From positions 1 through 35,395 of the forward strand of contig JAERRX010000153.1 of assembly GCA_016735225.1 (NCBI GenBank): DNA of 35,395 bases, written 5' to 3'. Shown here piece by piece: positions 3,249 to 18,730 of the stretch (position 1 is the stretch's first letter; the number at the start of each line of letters is the position of its first letter). The notes beneath the pieces were generated by a model. The model was not told where the DNA came from. It was given only the letters and a program-made list of their open reading frames with translations, and ran no database searches. The stretch is from Sulfurimonas sp. (GTDB lineage Bacteria; Campylobacterota; Campylobacteria; Campylobacterales; Sulfurimonadaceae). Made by a program: the position numbers and the translations under genes.

Positions 3249-4270
3249 AAGTTTACACACTCTCTAGCTATCTCTAACTCCTCATCTGTTTTTATCACTA
3301 AAACTGGGATGTTAGGAGCTAAGTCATTTGCCATTACACACTCTCGGATATAGGAAGAATTTTCACCGATGCCACCACTAAAGATGATAGCATCTACTCT
3401 TTGTAGTAGAGTTGTATATGCACCTATATACTTTCTTATTCTTCTTGTCATCATACTTAAGGCAAGTTTATCTTTCTCGCTGTTGGCTTCTACTATCTTT
3501 CTAACATCACTTTTAGAGCAGATGCCCTTTAGTCCTGACTTGGTGTTTAACATATCTTCAACCTCATCAAGACTAAAACCTAGAGTTCTTTGAAGATGTA
3601 TGATGATAGCAGGGTCGATATCGCCACTTCTACTGCCCATAACTAAACCTTCTAGTGGTGTAAAACCCATAGAAGTATCTATACTTTTTCCATTTTTTAT
3701 AGCACATATACTTGCACCATTACCTAGATGCAAGCTGATGATATTTAGCTCTGAGGTTTTTTTCTTTAGTATTTTAGCACTCTCTTTTAAAAGGTATGAG
3801 TGAGATGTTCCATGAAAACCGTATCTTCTTATCTTGTATTTATCATACATTTCATAAGGCAAGGCATACAAAAAAGCCTCTTTTGGCATAGTAGAGTGAA
3901 AAGCTGTGTCAAATACCGCAACTTGTTTTATATGTGGAGCTATTTTTTGACAAACCTCTATACCATCTAAATTTGCCATATTGTGCAGAGGAGCTAGGGG
4001 TATTAGCTCTCTTATCATCTGGGTCACTTCATACGTTATAACTACACTTTTACTAAACTTCTCTCCACCATGAACAACTCTATGCCCTATCATATCTAAA
4101 GAGTTAAACTCTATGTTTTTTTGTTCTAGTTTTAAGATGATTTCTTTTAGAGCTTCGTGATGGTTTTTTATCTCTTGTGCTATTATATCTACTATGACCT
4201 TTTCGCTACTCGTGTCAAATATTTTAAACTTTATAGAGGAGCTTCCTGAGTTTATTACAGCTATATTCAT
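3245..4270 (-). CDS. ackA: Acetate kinase, compact form
   Basis: Acetate kinase makes acetate and ATP from acetyl phosphate and ADP, the second step of the Pta-AckA pathway, or runs in reverse for acetate uptake. Family motifs are clear: MNIAVINSGSSSIKF (phosphate site), HRVVHGG, FDTAFHSTMP, RRYGFHGTSH, LHLGNGASICAI, MGFTPLEGLVMGSRSGDIDPAI and FSGGIGENSSYIRE. The track ORF starts 20 residues too early. The true ATG at 4270 overlaps the pta stop as ATGA, which implies translational coupling. At 341 aa it is about 55-60 residues shorter than usual. The shortfall lies in the N-terminal lobe after the first motif and in the segment between GIGENS and the terminal VLVIKTDEELEIAR. Catalytic motifs are kept, so it is probably active. 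Confidence 0.95.
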   Translation of the reverse strand: MNIAVINSGSSSIKFKIFDTSSEKVIVDIIAQEIKNHHEALKEIILKLEQKNIEFNSLDMIGHRVVHGGEKFSKSVVITYEVTQMIRELIPLAPLHNMANLDGIEVCQKIAPHIKQVAVFDTAFHSTMPKEAFLYALPYEMYDKYKIRRYGFHGTSHSYLLKESAKILKKKTSELNIISLHLGNGASICAIKNGKSIDTSMGFTPLEGLVMGSRSGDIDPAIIIHLQRTLGFSLDEVEDMLNTKSGLKGICSKSDVRKIVEANSEKDKLALSMMTRRIRKYIGAYTTLLQRVDAIIFSGGIGENSSYIRECVMANDLAPNIPVLVIKTDEELEIARECVNF

Positions 4271-6348
4271 TGTTTTTGTGCCTGTATCGCCGTGATGGCA
4301 ACTGTATTTACTATATCTTCCACACTGCATCCTCTACTTAGATCATTTATGGGCTTGTTTAGTCCTTGAAGTATGGGACCGATGGCAACAGCATCACTTG
4401 AACGCTCAACCGCTTTATATGTGTTGTTTCCTGTGTTTAAGTCAGGAAATATCAAAACATTTGCCTTTCCAGCTACTTTTGAGTTTGGAAGTTTTGAAGA
4501 GGCTACTTTTTTATTTACAGCAGCATCGTATTGTATAGGTCCCTCTATAGGAATATTTGGGTTTTTTTGTTTAAATATCTGAGTAGCCTTTCTCACTTTA
4601 TCTACATCTTTGCCATGTCCGCTATCTCCTGTTGAGTAAGACAACATCGCAACCTTTACATCAAGCCCAAAAGCCTCTGCCGTGTCTGAACATGAAAGAG
4701 CGATCTGTGCTAACTCATCGGCATCTGGGTCTTGGTTTACAGCACAATCTCCATAGACTAAAACCTTTGTTTTTAGGCACATAAAAAACAGACTTGATAC
4801 TATGCTAATGTTTGGCAAGGTTTTGATTATCTGTAGGGCTGGTCTTATGGTTTCTCCAGTTGAGTGAACCGCTCCACTTACCATCCCATCTGCATATCCA
4901 AGCTCAACCATCATAGTTGCAAAATAGTTCACATGTTGCATAGCATCTAGTGCTGCTTTTTTACTCAAACCCTTATCTTTTCTTCGCTCATAAAACTCAT
5001 CTGCGAAAACTTGCATCAACTCAGAGTCCAAATAGTTTATAACAGTAGCCTCGCTTAGGTCTAAACCTAACCTCAAATAGCTCTCTTTTAACTCCTCTTC
5101 ATCTCCTAAAAGGATAACCTCTCCAAGCCCTCTTCGCAAAATAATCTCCGCTGCTCTTAATACTCTCTCATCTTTACTCTCTGGTAAAACAATGCGTTTT
5201 TTATGTAGTCTTGCTAACTCAAAAAGTTTATACTCAAACATCATCGGTGTCATAGTATCACTTGAAGCACAAACTATACCCTTTTCTATAGCTTTTATAT
5301 CTACATTTTGATGAAAAAGACCGAGAATTAAGGCTATCTTTCTCTCACTTGTTACCCTTAGTTTGGCATCTATTTTTGATATATTTTTTGCACTTTTGTA
5401 TGTGTCGGTAGAAACAGACAATATAGGAATGTTAAAATCATCAAGCCCATCTATAAGATTTTGGATATTCTTACCCATCTCTATATCGTGAGTCAAAACA
5501 ATAGCACTAATATTTGGGTAGTTTTTGGAATAAAGAGCAACTATAAGACCGAGTATGATGTCAGAGCGGTCTGATGGAACTACGACTAGATCGTCTTCTT
5601 CTAGCTGTGACAAAAAGTTATCTACACTTAGTGCGGCTACTTTTACTTTTTTTATGATTCTTGTATGATCTTTTTCTCCAAAAACAATACTCTTAGCATC
5701 TAGGCTCTCTACAACATCTTGAACTGTCAATCTTCCTAGCTCTTCCATCTCTTTAAAAAGATATACTTTTTTAGAATGCTTTTTTAGCTTTTTTTCTAGC
5801 TCCATATAGCTTTGCTCATCGATTCTATTTACAAAGGTTGCAAAGCTAGAACAAGCATCCTTGCTGATATTTTCACTCTCCATAAGCACATCTTCATATA
5901 CTTCTCTAGGTGTTCTATCTTTAGCATTTACTATATTTATAAGAGGTGAGCCAAAGTTTTGAGCTATCTTTATGTTTAGGTCATAGTTTATTGTTTTACT
6001 TAAAAATGAACGCCTAATACCTTCACATAAAACAAAATCATAGTTTTTTTCTAACTTTTTAAACTTTGTTATTAGTTCATTTATAAGCTCGTTATACCTG
6101 TTAGATGCTAACATCATCTCAACATATTCTATATCTAAACCATAACTATCTTCATGGTTCATATCGAGATCATATCTTTTTAAAATAAAGTCGATATCTC
6201 CATCTAGCTTTGACTTAGAATAGACAATAGGTCTAAAAAAAGCGACTTTATGGAGATTTCTTTTCAAAATCTCCATCATTCCCATAGATACAAAAAGTGT
6301 TCCTGCCCCTTTTTCTTGAGCAGATATATAAAGTGATTTAATATTCAT
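4267..6348 (-). CDS. pta: Phosphate acetyltransferase, long three-domain form
   Basis: Pta converts acetyl-CoA and phosphate to acetyl phosphate and CoA in the cytoplasm. The 693-aa protein has the long architecture: an N-terminal BioD/CobQ-like P-loop domain (MNIKSLYISAQEKGAGT), a central DRTGG-type domain (about 210-330), and the catalytic PTA domain (about 370-690). The last contains KRIVLPESKDERVLRAAEI, DGMVSGAVHSTGETIRPALQIIKT and FPDLNTGNNTYKAVERSSDAVAIGPILQGLNKP. It is first in a minus-strand operon with ackA, with a 4-base overlap. The gene starts close to the divergent SEC-C gene, so their promoters share the 40-bp gap. Nothing is odd in its motifs. Confidence 0.96.
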   Translation of the reverse strand: MNIKSLYISAQEKGAGTLFVSMGMMEILKRNLHKVAFFRPIVYSKSKLDGDIDFILKRYDLDMNHEDSYGLDIEYVEMMLASNRYNELINELITKFKKLEKNYDFVLCEGIRRSFLSKTINYDLNIKIAQNFGSPLINIVNAKDRTPREVYEDVLMESENISKDACSSFATFVNRIDEQSYMELEKKLKKHSKKVYLFKEMEELGRLTVQDVVESLDAKSIVFGEKDHTRIIKKVKVAALSVDNFLSQLEEDDLVVVPSDRSDIILGLIVALYSKNYPNISAIVLTHDIEMGKNIQNLIDGLDDFNIPILSVSTDTYKSAKNISKIDAKLRVTSERKIALILGLFHQNVDIKAIEKGIVCASSDTMTPMMFEYKLFELARLHKKRIVLPESKDERVLRAAEIILRRGLGEVILLGDEEELKESYLRLGLDLSEATVINYLDSELMQVFADEFYERRKDKGLSKKAALDAMQHVNYFATMMVELGYADGMVSGAVHSTGETIRPALQIIKTLPNISIVSSLFFMCLKTKVLVYGDCAVNQDPDADELAQIALSCSDTAEAFGLDVKVAMLSYSTGDSGHGKDVDKVRKATQIFKQKNPNIPIEGPIQYDAAVNKKVASSKLPNSKVAGKANVLIFPDLNTGNNTYKAVERSSDAVAIGPILQGLNKPINDLSRGCSVEDIVNTVAITAIQAQKQ

Positions 6349-6801: not shown

Positions 6802-7785
6802 ATGAGTAATAAAGCATTTGTTGTTAATAAGCTTGAAGATAAGTTTACTTCAGGAGTTATGGAGTTAGATATTCCCACTATTGAAGATAAAGAGGTACTT
6901 ATAAAAGTCAGCTATTCAAGTGTAAACTTTAAAGATGCACTTAGCTCCATAGGTAACCCTGGAGTTACAAGAAAATTTCCTCATGTTACAGGTATAGATG
7001 CTGTTGGAACTATAGAACAAAGTAACTCTAAGCACTTTAGTAAAGGCGATGAAGTTTTAGTAACTGGGTATGATATGGGAATGAATAGCGATGGAGGACA
7101 TCAAGAGTATCTCAAAGTTCCAGAGGCTTGGGTGCTTAAAAAACCAACTTCTATATCAGATAAAGATATTATGATATATGGAACAGCTGGTTTAACTGCT
7201 GGACTTAGTGTCAATGAGCTACTAGCAAATGGCATAGATGCAAACTCTGGAGAGATCTTAGTAACTGGTGCTACTGGTGGTGTTGGTTCTATTGCTATCT
7301 CTATATTGAGCAAACTTGGGTTTAAAGTAGTTGCTATTAGTGGCAAAGAAGATAAGATCGACTTTCTTCAAGAGCTTGGTGCATCTGAGGTTATCTTAAG
7401 AAAAGATTTTGATATTGAGAACAAAAAACCGATGATGAAGACAAGGTTTGCAGGTTTAGTAGATACAGTAGGTGGCAATATCTTAGCCGAAGCACTAAAA
7501 ACTCTAAACTACGATGGAGTTGCAACTTGTTGTGGCTTAAGCTCATCTTTTAGCCTAAACACAAATGTTTTCCCCTTCATACTAAGAGGCATAAGACTTA
7601 TCGGTATAGACTCTGTCGAGTGTAAGATAGAAAAAAAACTAGCAGTATGGGAAAAGTTTGAAGATGAGTTTAAGATAGACACACTACAAAACATTACAAA
7701 CGAGATCTCCCTATACGACCTACCTCAAGCTTTTGAAGCCCTACTAGATGCTAAGGCTACTGGAAGATATGTGGTAAAAATATAA
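6802..7785 (+). CDS. YhdH/AcuI-type NADPH-dependent MDR reductase
   Basis: This 327-aa medium-chain dehydrogenase/reductase belongs to the YhdH/YhfP quinone oxidoreductase group, whose characterised members (AcuI) reduce acryloyl-CoA with NADPH. Visible signs are the catalytic-domain segment YSSVNFKDALSSIGNPGVTRKFPHVTGIDAVGTI, the nucleotide-binding turn VTGATGGVGSIAISIL, and the C-terminal ALLDAKATGRYVVKI. No zinc-ligand set is present, as expected for this subgroup. It stands alone, converging on a GNAT gene with a hairpin between them. The exact substrate cannot be read from sequence. Confidence 0.88.
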   Translation: MSNKAFVVNKLEDKFTSGVMELDIPTIEDKEVLIKVSYSSVNFKDALSSIGNPGVTRKFPHVTGIDAVGTIEQSNSKHFSKGDEVLVTGYDMGMNSDGGHQEYLKVPEAWVLKKPTSISDKDIMIYGTAGLTAGLSVNELLANGIDANSGEILVTGATGGVGSIAISILSKLGFKVVAISGKEDKIDFLQELGASEVILRKDFDIENKKPMMKTRFAGLVDTVGGNILAEALKTLNYDGVATCCGLSSSFSLNTNVFPFILRGIRLIGIDSVECKIEKKLAVWEKFEDEFKIDTLQNITNEISLYDLPQAFEALLDAKATGRYVVKI

Positions 7786-13928: not shown

Positions 13929-14858
13929 TTATTTTATTTTACTCATCTTGTCCATATAAGACTCCAAATCCTCTTTAACAATCTCTTTTAGCCATTGAGG
14001 CTCTATCACAAAAATATGAGGTATCCAATATTTAATAATGGGTAGTATCTCCATTTCATGAGTTACTTTTACACCAAACTCCATACTGCCATCGGCTCTT
14101 AAGGATTCTACTTTTTGAGTAGGTAGTGGTCTTCGTTTAAAAAACTTAGCACAGGACTTATCTGCAAATAGCCTTACTTCAAAAGGTTCTACGCCTCTTT
14201 GAAACCAAACAGATATGGACTCATCGAGAAGAGTATCAAGTTCACCATCTGTTTCAAATATAGTATCTGTTATAGTAGGGTTAGAAATATTTTTAAGATA
14301 GTATTTTTTTAAAATATCATCTCTAAGTCCAATCAAATACCAAAAACCCTCAAAATTAACTATCTTAAGTGCTTGTATCGTTGCAGTGTAAATATCGTGT
14401 CTTTCATCATCATAGGAGCATCTTACTTCTTTCTTCTCTTTTATAGCAGTTTCAAGAACTTGTATATCCTCAAACCTATCGCTTATATCTTCAATATTGA
14501 GTTTTGTATAGATGGGGTTAAAATCTTCATTTTTGATTTTAGACAATAATTTATGTGCTTTTGTAGAAAATTTACCACCAATACTTTGAGTTATCTTTTC
14601 AATAATATCAAGAACTATTTCATCTTCTAGTGATTTTGTTTTTTCAACTCTAAAACCATCTTGCATCTTCCATTTTTTGTTTTCTTGATAGATAGGAAAG
14701 GAGACAAGTCGTTCATTAAAGTCTCTTTGTATAGTTCTGTCGCTTGTGTTAAACTCTTTAGCTAACTCTTTTACCGAAAGTGCTTCGCCATCATTTAATT
14801 TTGATAGTATTACCGTTAGTCTTGTTAAGATTTTATCGTAGTCGTGTTTATATGCCAT
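13929..14858 (-). CDS. WYL-domain transcriptional regulator
   Basis: A 309-aa regulator: an N-terminal winged HTH of the DeoR/HTH_11 type (LNDGEALSVKELAKEFNTSDRTIQRDFNERL), a middle linker, and a WYL domain (ALKIVNFEGFWYLIGLRDDILKKYYLKNISNPTI) followed by the WCX-like C-terminal region (FEVRLFADKSCAKFFKRRPLPTQKVE). WYL domains sense nucleotide-type ligands, and such regulators often control phage-defence islands. AAGGTGAT precedes the ATG. It borders the accessory block on its left; its target is unknown, but the block to its right is a candidate. Confidence 0.9.
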   Translation of the reverse strand: MAYKHDYDKILTRLTVILSKLNDGEALSVKELAKEFNTSDRTIQRDFNERLVSFPIYQENKKWKMQDGFRVEKTKSLEDEIVLDIIEKITQSIGGKFSTKAHKLLSKIKNEDFNPIYTKLNIEDISDRFEDIQVLETAIKEKKEVRCSYDDERHDIYTATIQALKIVNFEGFWYLIGLRDDILKKYYLKNISNPTITDTIFETDGELDTLLDESISVWFQRGVEPFEVRLFADKSCAKFFKRRPLPTQKVESLRADGSMEFGVKVTHEMEILPIIKYWIPHIFVIEPQWLKEIVKEDLESYMDKMSKIK

Positions 14859-15823: not shown

Positions 15824-16342
15824 TTATTTATATTCAATATTGTTAGCTACCGTATCTTTTTCATATCCAGTAAACAAAATTGTAGCTTTCACATAGTTCG
15901 CACTAACTGATTTATCCGTTGTTGTTCCCCAAATAATGTCAGATTCATCATGAGCATTTTCATCTATTATCTCCATAGCTTCGGCAATTTCCATAATAGG
16001 CAAATCAGGGTGAACTACAAAATGTATCAACATGCCTGATATTTTATCCATCAAACTATAATCCAAAGATGAATTTTCTATTGATAGCTTTATGGCTTGG
16101 GTTGCTGAATTTTTACCCTCATATTCACCAATGCCACTAAATGCTTTACTGCCATGACTCATAATGACTTTTAAATCATCAAAATCAAGGTTTATATCAT
16201 TATCTCCACTCGATAAAACTACTCCAAGCATTCCTTTTATTGATTCTTTTATTTCATTGCTAAACTCTGTATTATCTATATATGTATATAGCTCTTTTTT
16301 GTCTATATTAGCATTTGATTCTGTTACTTCAAATATTTCCAT
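15824..16342 (-). CDS. Free-standing FtsZ C-terminal domain protein (no GTPase domain)
   Basis: The 172-aa protein aligns with the second half of bacterial FtsZ. Residues 26-60 match the H7 core helix and T7 loop (IKESIKGMLGVVLSSGDNDINLDFDDLKVIMSH), with the loop's Asn51, Asp53 and Asp56 (N-x-D-x-x-D) kept. Residues 60-160 match the C-terminal subdomain (FSGIGEYEGKNSATQAI, GMLIHFVVHPDLPIMEI, DIIWGTTTD, YVKATILFTGYEKD), close to epsilonproteobacterial FtsZ. The Rossmann-like GTP-binding domain with GGGTGTG is absent, and so is the terminal FtsA/ZipA-binding peptide. A strong Shine-Dalgarno site (CAGGAGAG) sits in the end of the upstream sigma-like ORF, whose TAA overlaps this ATG (TAATG). It could cap or poison FtsZ filaments (inference). 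It might otherwise be only a retained fragment, but the clean start site argues for expression. Confidence 0.85.
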   Translation of the reverse strand: MEIFEVTESNANIDKKELYTYIDNTEFSNEIKESIKGMLGVVLSSGDNDINLDFDDLKVIMSHGSKAFSGIGEYEGKNSATQAIKLSIENSSLDYSLMDKISGMLIHFVVHPDLPIMEIAEAMEIIDENAHDESDIIWGTTTDKSVSANYVKATILFTGYEKDTVANNIEYK

Positions 16343-16494
16343 TATAACTCTCCTGATACATAATCTTTTAATTTTCTACCTATTTTTGGAGACTTCAGTT
16401 TTTTTAATACCTGAGTCTCTATCTGTCTTACTCATTCCCTTGTAATACCTAATATTTTTGCTATCTCTTCTAGTGTGTAATCACCACTTTTTAT
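16342..16494 (-). pseudogene. Sigma-70 region 4-like mini-gene with internal TGA
   Basis: Minus-strand frame: KSGDYTLEEIAKILGITRE, then TGA (16432-16434), then VRQIETQVLKKLKSPKIGRKLKDYVSGEL and TAA. This is the region 4.2 helix-turn-helix of sigma-70 factors (YTLEEIAKILGITRERVRQIExxxLxKLK), with TGA exactly where a conserved Arg stands. One change (CGA or AGA to TGA) explains it. The likely start position also reads ATA (16492-16494) instead of ATG, after a GGAGGG motif. The frame remains open afterwards, and its TAA overlaps the FtsZ-like ATG. It is either a recently killed regulator or, less likely, a readthrough gene. Confidence 0.75.
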
Positions 16495-16551
16495 TGATCT
16501 CTTTTATCCCTCCGTTTTAAATATATATATAATATAAGCTTAATCTCGCCA

Positions 16552-17202
16552 TTAATCATAAGTATTAGACATGTTAGCTAAATAGTGTGTCATTAAACTT
16601 TTATTGTCATCACTATTTTTTGAAGTAGTTTTACTTTGCTCAGGAAGAGTATTTTTAAACTTAAGATAGCCCTCTAGTAATCCAAGGATATTTTTCTTAC
16701 CAACTGGATTTTGAGAATGCACCTTATATTTAAAATCAGATGGTAGCTTGTAGGTGTTGTTTAGATCGCTATCAACTATCCATTTTGCTAAGTCATAACC
16801 ACTTTTTAATAGATTAGTATCCTCATCTTCTCCTAAATCATGGTCAAAAGATATGAAGTTTGGAATACCATGTTTTTTAATTATTGAAACAGCTTCTTCA
16901 TAGTTTCTAACTATAAAATCAAACTCTTCTGTTGGAGTTCTAAGGTCATCTAAATACATTTTCATAAGCTTTGCCTCCTTTCTCATAAATAAAAGTCTTT
17001 TTTTATTTTCAAGACCACTCTTTGATAAATAATCATTTAGTTTTTGTTCCAATCTTTTATCTATCTCCTGTCGTCTCTCCCATTCAATCCTACTTTTATC
17101 ATAAAACTCTTCTGTTTTTCTTATATGCTTTTTTATGTAATATAAAACTATAAAAGTTATTACAGCATCAATTATGAGATGTGTTATTAACTCAGAACTC
17201 AT
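16552..17202 (-). CDS. Membrane-anchored cyclic-phosphate-processing receiver (cREC) protein
   Basis: From the ATG at 17202 (MSSELITHL) the protein is 216 aa. The track start at 17229 adds nine residues overlapping the gene upstream. An N-terminal transmembrane helix (LIIDAVITFIVLYYI) is followed by a basic/acidic coiled-coil linker. Then comes a cREC domain: MYLDDLRTPTEEFDFIVRNYEEAVSII, ISFDHDLGEDEDTNLLKSGYDLAKWIVD and YKVHSQNPVGKKNILGLLEGYL. The conserved LDD.R, SFDHDLG and HSxNPVG motifs mark the family, proposed by Burroughs and Aravind to process cyclic phosphates in RNA-repair or conflict systems. The tail is Ser/Asn-rich and looks disordered. A remnant AAA ATPase lies directly upstream on the same strand, suggesting a former two-gene unit. 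Membrane anchoring of this domain is unusual as far as I know. Confidence 0.78.
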   Translation of the reverse strand: MSSELITHLIIDAVITFIVLYYIKKHIRKTEEFYDKSRIEWERRQEIDKRLEQKLNDYLSKSGLENKKRLLFMRKEAKLMKMYLDDLRTPTEEFDFIVRNYEEAVSIIKKHGIPNFISFDHDLGEDEDTNLLKSGYDLAKWIVDSDLNNTYKLPSDFKYKVHSQNPVGKKNILGLLEGYLKFKNTLPEQSKTTSKNSDDNKSLMTHYLANMSNTYD

Positions 17203-17206
17203 GATG

Positions 17207-17741
17207 CTAAAACCCCATAACATTCTCATTGGATTTATTCTTAACAGCTACCCCATCTTCAAGTCTTTTTATAAAGTCCTTAATATTATCAATAGATCTA
17301 AACCTATTTTGTCTCCCCACTGCTGCAAAATCCCCTGGAGTTAGCTCTTTTAAATTTTGAATCTCTTGTTTGAACTCTTTAGCAACCTTAGGCAATTTTA
17401 AACTCTTAGAAAACTCTTTAAACATCTTCCAAGCTTGTTCTGGTTTTAAATACTCAAACTCTAACTTCAAATCGAACCGTCTTAAACTAGCACGATCTAG
17501 ATTATCCATTAAGTTAGTAGTTGCTATAAAAACTCCATCACTGACTAGCATCTAAAAAAGCTAATATTGTATCTTTAGCCACATAATCATCTTTATCAAT
17601 AAACTCTCTATGACCACCAAGATTTATGATTATACGGAGTATCCGAAGTGATGCTTTATCAATAAGTCTCTTTTGAATTAATTGTGATTTATCAAAATCT
17701 ATCGCTGTATTAACAGTTTTTCTTCTTTTTCTTTGTCTCAT
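17207..17741 (-). pseudogene. AAA+ ATPase remnant, core deleted
   Basis: Two minus-strand ORFs are parts of one gene. The 5' piece (17741 to 17538, 67 aa) has a strong GAGGAG Shine-Dalgarno site and reads KASLRILRIIINLGGHREFIDKDD...AFLDASQ, then stop. The 3' piece (17551 to 17207) overlaps it in another frame and reads DGVFIATTNLMDNLDRASLRRFDLKLEFEYLKPEQAWKMF. That is the sensor-1 (ATTN) and arginine-finger region of a classical AAA ATPase with its C-terminal helices. Walker A and Walker B are missing, so an internal deletion has removed the nucleotide-binding core and shifted the frame. It cannot hydrolyse ATP. It lies immediately upstream of the cREC gene. Confidence 0.75.
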
Positions 17742-18028: not shown

Positions 18029-18730
18029 ATCAAATATTTCATCTTAAGCATACTGTTCTCAAGCCTACTGTTTTCAGCACAAAAACAAATCATTCTTGGA
18101 AGTTTTTTAATCCCAAGCAATGCCGTCAACGATCTAAAAAGGCTTGAAAAATATATAGCTAGTGACAAAAAGTTAAAAGAACTTATAGAGATAAACTCAC
18201 TAAAAGCGGAGTCTAGCACAATTGGAAAGTATCGTGTAGTCGCTATTTTACCTTTTGATAACTACAAGCAACTACTCAGAACATTGATCTCTCTTGAAAA
18301 ATACTATGATGATGCTTATGTTTTAGACTACCCCTCAAAATCTCAAACACTTAAAAAAGAATTTCCACTTACTGAAGTTAAAAGTAAAGAGGAGGTTCTT
18401 GAAAAAGAGCTTACAGAAGAAGAAATTTTAGAAAAAGAGATTGCAGAGGAAGAAGTTCTCGAAAAAGAGATTGCCGAAGAAGAGGCTCTTAAAGAAGAGA
18501 TTGCAGAGAAAGATATTCTTAGAGAAGATATTTCCAAAGAGGAAGTTCTCAAAGAAGAGGAAGTTCTCAAAGAAGAGGTAGCCGAAGAAGAGGTTCTTAA
18601 AGAAGAGATTATCGAAAAAAAAGAAAAAGTTAAAAACAATTACTTATTAGAAATTTCATTAGGAATAATATTTTTATCACTTATAGCTTATGCAGCTTAT
18701 AGAATAAGAAAAAAGTATATAAGTCTTTGA
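18029..18730 (+). CDS. SPOR-like, Glu-rich envelope protein with apparent ATC start
   Basis: The track ORF begins at an internal TTG (18284), but the same frame is open upstream and encodes a signal peptide: (M)KYFILSILFSSLLFSAQ. A SPOR-like region follows: IILGSFLIPSNAVNDLKRLEKYI...GKYRVVAILPFDNYKQLLRTLISLEKYYDDAYVL. Next come about 75 residues of E/K-rich repeats (EEVLEKEIAEEE, likely coiled coil) and a C-terminal membrane helix (LEISLGIIFLSLIAYAAYRI). AAGGA lies six bases before codon ATC (18029-18031), exactly where ATG is expected. No ATG, GTG or TTG occurs in frame between the upstream stop and 18284. The product would be 233 aa. SPOR domains bind denuded peptidoglycan, so an envelope role is likely. 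The non-canonical start is either real, a recent mutation, or an error. Confidence 0.7.
   Translation: MKYFILSILFSSLLFSAQKQIILGSFLIPSNAVNDLKRLEKYIASDKKLKELIEINSLKAESSTIGKYRVVAILPFDNYKQLLRTLISLEKYYDDAYVLDYPSKSQTLKKEFPLTEVKSKEEVLEKELTEEEILEKEIAEEEVLEKEIAEEEALKEEIAEKDILREDISKEEVLKEEEVLKEEVAEEEVLKEEIIEKKEKVKNNYLLEISLGIIFLSLIAYAAYRIRKKYISL
18391..18615 (+). repeat. Degenerate tandem coding repeat (Glu/Lys-rich)
   Basis: Imperfect 12-24 bp units around GAAGAAGTTCTCGAAAAAGAG encode EEVLEKE/EEVLKEE blocks repeated about ten times. The unit is prone to copy-number change by slippage. The antisense 98-aa ORF in the track is a shadow of it. Confidence 0.75.

Follow-up and report, generated by a model that had tools for sequence, protein, structure and literature searches.

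What does a free-standing C-terminal domain of FtsZ do in a bacterium that also encodes a complete FtsZ, and why does it lie in an island of regulators and defense-type genes? The question is raised by a 35,395-nt stretch of Sulfurimonas sp. DNA (contig JAERRX010000153.1, forward strand; here called the window). Such a protein reverses the usual FtsZ relative, in which the GTPase domain is kept, and represents a natural test of the abilities of the T7 face alone. The occurrence of the same truncation in the defense-type islands of relatives suggests that the protein either imitates a phage target, as a decoy or trap, or acts to brake cell division.

An FtsZ C-terminal domain without a GTPase domain

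The gene (FtsZ_C) and the adjoining features of the window, delimited with simple ORF calls, are as follows:

13929..14858, minus strand: intact HTH-WYL-WCX regulator of the island subfamily (MAYKHDYDKILTRL...), 309 aa (domain search, subfamily comparison)
15824..16342, minus strand: FtsZ_C gene (H7/T7 loop/C-terminal domain), 172 aa (ORF call, Pfam, TIGR00065, PDB, AlphaFold2/Foldseek)
16345..16500, minus strand: remnant of a 53-codon RpoD C-terminal helix-turn-helix (sigma70 region 4) with an in-frame TGA and no start
16348..16354, minus strand: Shine-Dalgarno AGGAGAG, 5 nt upstream of the FtsZ_C ATG (sequence)
16552..17229, minus strand: 225-aa protein with a hydrophobic/coiled N terminus and a cREC_REC domain (PF20274, E=3.7e-24)
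17210..17729, minus strand: remnants of a ~700-aa IetA-like AAA ATPase, i.e., two end pieces with the middle ~530 codons deleted

The FtsZ_C protein matched the Pfam FtsZ_C model (PF12327) at residues 67-160 (E=6e-15; 55.7 bits, above the cut-off of 27). Positions 192-332 of the 353-position TIGR00065 ftsZ profile aligned to residues 28-168 with a score (76.7 bits) far below the cut-off (295.2 bits); as the alignment begins only at position 192, the match is confined to the C-terminal half of FtsZ. FtsZ chains in the PDB aligned to residues 26-163, and a Foldseek search of the PDB with an AlphaFold2 model, although its confidence was modest (pLDDT 59, pTM 0.61, five sequences), returned FtsZ C-domains (E=8e-12). 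The protein contains part of helix H7 and an intact T7 loop, in which N51, D53, and D56 of the motif N51-L-D53-F-D-D56 are the equivalents of N207, D209, and D212. Pfam and TIGR00065 searches found neither the tubulin GTPase domain (PF00091) nor a tubulin signature in the protein, which ends in ANNIEYK; host FtsZ ends in LDIPSYMRKQQD, and the disordered tail and terminal FtsA-binding peptide are missing. Thus, compared with FtsZ (TIGR00065, PF00091 plus PF12327), the window protein shares the C-terminal domain fold, a T7 loop with both Asp residues, and likely FtsZ-type start residues but lacks the GTPase domain, the tubulin signature, the C-terminal tail, and the FtsA-binding peptide.

These results confirm that the ORF is an FtsZ C-terminal domain without the GTPase domain. 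A first-pass annotation, made from the sequence alone, had described it in this way (172 aa covering only helix H7, the T7 loop, and the C-terminal subdomain), and its reports of a retained N-x-D-x-x-D motif and a strong Shine-Dalgarno site were equally accurate; its ORF end (16344) was placed 2 nt too far. The accessory FtsZ-superfamily proteins FtsZl1 and FtsZl2 likewise occur beside a normal FtsZ, FtsZl1 in conserved neighborhoods. In both families, the nucleotide-binding domain is retained, and no FtsZ C-domain is recognizable in FtsZl1 (Makarova and Koonin, PMC2875224). The window protein is the reverse, with the C-domain kept and no FtsZ-like nucleotide-binding domain found in it.

Probable origin by internal deletion

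The host genome carries an intact full-length ftsZ on another contig (G000:C91), whose 372-aa product is 47% identical to the window protein, and the window FtsZ_C family forms a supported clade apart from host FtsZ (96/91). The main ftsZ, which the first-pass annotation had considered as a recent donor located elsewhere, does therefore lie elsewhere, but its role as a recent donor and a recent truncation of host ftsZ are rejected by the low identity and the separate clade.

Residues 1-9 of the window protein (MEIFEVTES) resemble the start of Sulfurimonas FtsZ (MEPFVIEEA; MEIFNIEET in the host's own), a likeness equaled by shuffled positions in 0.2% of trials (permutation p=0.002), and the starts of relatives (MEIFTVAEAN and METFTVAEAN) are likewise similar to the FtsZ N terminus. 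The FtsZ-like first residues point to an internal deletion rather than a 5' truncation; judging from these sequence comparisons, the gene probably arose from FtsZ through internal loss of the GTPase domain (residues ~10-190). Similar islands contain intermediates of 301-314 aa with ~30-37 residues missing around positions 50-86 (G502 and G005) and of 253-277 aa with a ruined GTPase domain (G083, G021, and G130), as well as C-only forms. All of the partly deleted, GTPase-damaged intermediates keep the T7 loop and the C-domain. The tree analysis neither established a single origin of all short FtsZ relatives nor rejected one (AU p=0.42; very long branches).

Distribution and selection

Intact close copies with the same boundaries were found in 7 of the 135 genus genomes, i.e., the window genome and six other Sulfurimonas genomes, in which the copies are free-standing (64-73% identity). 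The dN/dS values among these copies (0.19-0.44) indicate purifying rather than relaxed selection, and together with the homologs they make a chance or untranslated ORF unlikely. The proposal that the fragment is kept as a stand-alone gene was thus upheld by both the genome survey and the selection analysis. Other copies are frameshifted (G102), disrupted (G052), or partial (G058); the genomes are largely metagenome assemblies, and assembly errors may account for some of the breaks. Short FtsZ relatives of greater divergence are widespread in the genus (many other genomes), and a related operon is present in G177, which belongs to another family of the order.

The broken copies, along with the broken AAA gene and sigma mini-gene beside FtsZ_C in the window, would fit a relic, i.e., a decaying fragment of an island FtsZ paralog with no present function. 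This explanation is quite improbable given the intact reading frame with its Shine-Dalgarno site, the seven intact copies with conserved boundaries and constrained dN/dS, and the supported clade separate from host FtsZ.

A phage origin of FtsZ_C was not supported: no truncated copy was found in viral contigs (IMG/VR), and the matches in phage and plasmid collections were weak: those listed were all <36% identical, were often annotated as ftsZ, and mostly look like ordinary FtsZ, as judged without a one-by-one length check. A match in a Helicobacter MAG (L066) is full-length FtsZ and was discarded. The window's own genome contains a second FtsZ_C-like fragment (L042 9019-9270, G000:C12) of 83 aa without the T7 loop.

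A WYL-marked island with defense-type genes

All parts of the window island are on the minus strand; the cREC, FtsZ_C, and WYL genes are open, and the AAA gene and sigma mini-gene are broken. The island is decaying, with FtsZ_C itself intact. The IetA-like AAA ATPase is intact in G011, G102, G128, and G052, and the islands of the first three are co-directional, with AAA near the start, FtsZ_C soon after, and WYL near or at the end.

The WYL subfamily (MAYKHDYDKILTRL...) clusters with FtsZ_C loci (13 of 20 loci). Where one contig carries both genes, WYL lies 0.4-5.8 kb from the nearest FtsZ_C (1.0 kb in the window), with one further fragment at 11 kb. These distances are safer evidence than the co-occurrence across 100 genus genomes (both genes in 13, WYL only in 8, FtsZ_C only in 7, and neither in 72; Fisher p=1.2e-6), because the WYL set was delimited after the scores had been seen. 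Neighbors of FtsZ_C in these islands include genes for an IetA-like double AAA ATPase, GmrSD, DUF2779, Fic, Sir2, macro-like, and leucine-rich-repeat proteins, as well as the PADLOC candidate PDC-S26 (PD-(D/E)XK). FtsZ_C is therefore a member of WYL-marked defense islands, as indicated in relatives by GmrSD, PDC-S26, the IetA-like AAA, Fic, and Sir2. The WYL proximity and the defense-type neighbors also support the accessory-island context with regulators and defense-like genes described by the first-pass annotation. By context, these loci resemble WYL/BrxR-marked phage defense islands, in which an HTH-WYL regulator lies beside restriction and other defense genes (PMC9122601); excised host domains, a feature of the Sulfurimonas islands, were not found described for them.

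Several other ORFs accompany these genes. A conserved protein of ~138 aa, assigned to no known family, is encoded immediately downstream of FtsZ_C in AAA operons from two families:

L070 9920-10336: ~138-aa conserved protein after FtsZ_C
L069 10047-10463: the same
L071 2758-3156: the same

Short leucine-rich-repeat ORFs of one family occur in the same islands (L032 8667-8993, L035 9002-9310, and L041 7626-7997), and those of L032 and L035 overlap with the 5' end of a highly diverged FtsZ_C gene. In the window, positions 18284-18730 (plus strand) hold a 148-aa TTG-start ORF, which consists mostly of E/K-rich repeats (EEEVLEKEIAE), has a membrane segment at its C terminus, and may be spurious.

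One possibility suggested by the gene order is that the AAA machine, or another operon partner, has recruited the FtsZ fold as a structural or adaptor component that has no dealings left with host FtsZ or its inhibitors. The AAA-FtsZ_C order is kept in several Sulfurimonas genomes and in G177, and the two genes overlap by 1 nt in G128 and 26 nt in G177. However, G084, G062, and G093 have no adjoining AAA gene, FtsZ_C instead following fbp or other genes, the partner in G084 and G062 is GIY-YIG-like, and in the window the AAA gene is destroyed while FtsZ_C is intact. An accessory subunit of this type is thus improbable.

Conservation of the T7 loop and a possible division brake

Among 26 short relatives, the D212 equivalent is Asp in 25 and Glu in the remaining one; D209 is retained in 19 and N207 in 14. 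Among the columns invariant in genus FtsZ, that of Asp212 is the best kept across the 26 short forms. Within the close family, no segment resembles host FtsZ more than the T7 loop (82% identity, versus 26% for H7 and 19% for the H9-S8 loop). These conservation figures may be inflated, because homology searches favor members that keep conserved motifs. The plus-end elements together were more conserved than the rest only as a trend (p=0.09), and sequence proof that the T7 face is conserved above other faces thus failed. These data indicate that the selected feature is the T7 (plus-end) face without GTP binding, the GTPase domain having been lost.

The first-pass annotation had proposed that the free domain brakes division. 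In a modified form of this idea, the C-domain would use its T7 loop to dock on the FtsZ nucleotide face and either block this face or trigger GTP hydrolysis in the terminal subunit via Asp209/Asp212, so that filaments would be shortened or sequestered once the island is turned on. The best single argument for such a brake is the retention of Asp212 in forms that mostly lack a GTPase domain. The frequent retention of Asp209 and the FtsZ-like T7 loop are also in its favor, and WYL-controlled islands suit growth-arrest effectors (PMC9122601). On the other hand, the exposed nucleotide face is the minus end, where binding has been argued to nucleate or stabilize filaments unless it is sequestering (PMC11938149), and N207 is missing from almost half of the members. 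Moreover, no conserved antitoxin partner was found among the neighbors of FtsZ_C, which vary (the sigma mini-gene adjoins it in 4 genomes only), and the RpoD, FtsK, and IF2 fragments of similar islands are left unexplained. We consider the brake possible but doubtful; if true, it would be an FtsZ regulator made from FtsZ itself.

An RpoD mini-gene and possible mimicry of host targets

The RpoD mini-gene (53-57 codons; Sigma70_r4 E=8e-14; 66-68% identity to host RpoD) is intact in G102, G011, and G052, where it lies directly upstream of or overlaps the FtsZ_C start, and the window holds a broken copy. Standalone close copies of RpoD region 4 numbered four in the 135 genomes, all adjoining FtsZ_C, not counting a 49-aa frame with a background score in G062. 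The three intact mini-genes are under strong purifying selection (dN/dS 0.08-0.16), and two more diverged copies reside in a similar island of another genus (G502). FtsZ_C evolves faster (omega 0.19-0.44) than its operon partners, the AAA gene and the sigma mini-gene (0.05-0.16).

From the surface that FtsZ_C displays and from its context, we infer that it may be a mimic of a host target, serving as a decoy or bait for phage FtsZ inhibitors. The free domain would fold like the FtsZ C-domain, neither bind GTP nor form filaments, and display the surface used by inhibitors; in an infected cell, its ligands would be phage-encoded FtsZ inhibitors (Gp0.4, Kil, or Icd type). As a decoy, it would soak up these inhibitors so that the real FtsZ keeps working, and as a bait, it would present the bound inhibitor to a neighboring effector. 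The RpoD mini-protein would have the same role for inhibitors of sigma region 4.

The T7/plus-end face of FtsZ has been described as an inhibitor hotspot and a common target of SulA, MciZ, and MinC (PMC11938149), and Gp0.4 of phage T7 has been modeled on the FtsZ C-region and synergy (T7) loop (PMC13423816). For these inhibitors and for the window protein, the surface concerned is the same, with the difference that the inhibitors bind this face and the window protein is the face. The Gp0.4-FtsZ complex activates the immune protein CapRelEbc (PMC13423816), a likeness in that an FtsZ C-region with a phage inhibitor acts as an immune trigger; however, CapRelEbc uses the host's own FtsZ, whereas the FtsZ C-domain here is separate and island encoded, and no CapRel was seen in the window. 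Because inhibitors usually target the T7/C-domain face, which FtsZ_C displays, a decoy or bait is at least as good an explanation as a brake, and the inhibitor literature together with the adjoining RpoD mini-gene makes the mimic our first choice, a plausible reading that we hold tentatively and favor over the brake.

The conserved boundaries, purifying selection, defense-type island, retained T7 loop, and other free host domains are all consistent with mimicry. The faster evolution of FtsZ_C might fit the part of an arms-race participant but could also reflect relaxed constraint, and the RpoD mini-protein might be no more than a DNA-binding regulator. The retention of the catalytic Asp212 fits a contact with GTP on another FtsZ and is not strictly that of a decoy. 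Also counting against the mimic are the broken FtsZ_C genes of G102 and G052 and a window island without an intact AAA gene, and we know of no FtsZ-targeting protein of Sulfurimonas phages. A literature search returned no direct precedent for free FtsZ C-domains, FtsZ in defense islands, or bacterial host-domain decoys. If the decoy or bait reading is true, it would show, next to the immune triggering by Gp0.4-FtsZ, that bacteria keep copies of host domains targeted by phages.

Other host-domain fragments in related islands

Related islands also hold FtsK gamma domains (by themselves or joined to an FtsZ GTPase piece), proteins with IF2_N at their N terminus, and FtsZ GTPase-only halves. The latter, the reverse truncation of the window gene, were found in 5 of the 135 genomes, several with a membrane-anchor-like N-terminal segment:

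L069 8441-9214 (G102): FtsZ GTPase-only protein
L116 1489-2265 (G129): the same
L117 1489-2241 (G096): the same
L118 1390-2058 (G114): the same
L119 1114-2061 (G083): the same

The G102 protein (257 aa, with a transmembrane segment and GGGVGSGA kept) is encoded between AAA and FtsZ_C, an arrangement that, with the existence of such halves in five genomes, might suggest a split FtsZ, in which the C-half and a separate membrane-anchored GTPase half rebuild a special filament. This is very improbable: the C-half of G102 is frameshifted, the GTPase-only genes of G129 and G096 each adjoin an AAA gene of their own (a separate gene for a ~500-aa ATPase), with FtsZ_C absent from the <=1.5 kb covered on each side, and a search of the window genome gave no GTPase-only half.

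The strongest point for the mimic is that FtsZ_C is accompanied by other host domains. By extension, the WYL/AAA islands of Sulfurimonas and its relatives could be arsenals of excised host domains (the FtsZ C-domain, the FtsZ GTPase half, RpoD region 4, FtsK gamma, and the IF2 N-domain) that lure phage take-over proteins as decoys or baits, a speculative and rather unlikely generalization. Phage take-over proteins would then aim at those same domains, and such arsenals would be a bacterial counterpart of the integrated decoys of plant immunity.

Two further loci hold related genes. L078 (G114; 3715-5616) encodes a full-length FtsZ paralog (459 aa) with a RecG-wedge-like tail, which has as neighbors a 171-aa FtsK-gamma/FtsZ-GTPase fusion and an IF2_N protein. 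In L055 (G073; 6971-7160), an FtsK gamma domain is encoded alone (63 aa) beside a Sir2 gene and the AAA ATPase.
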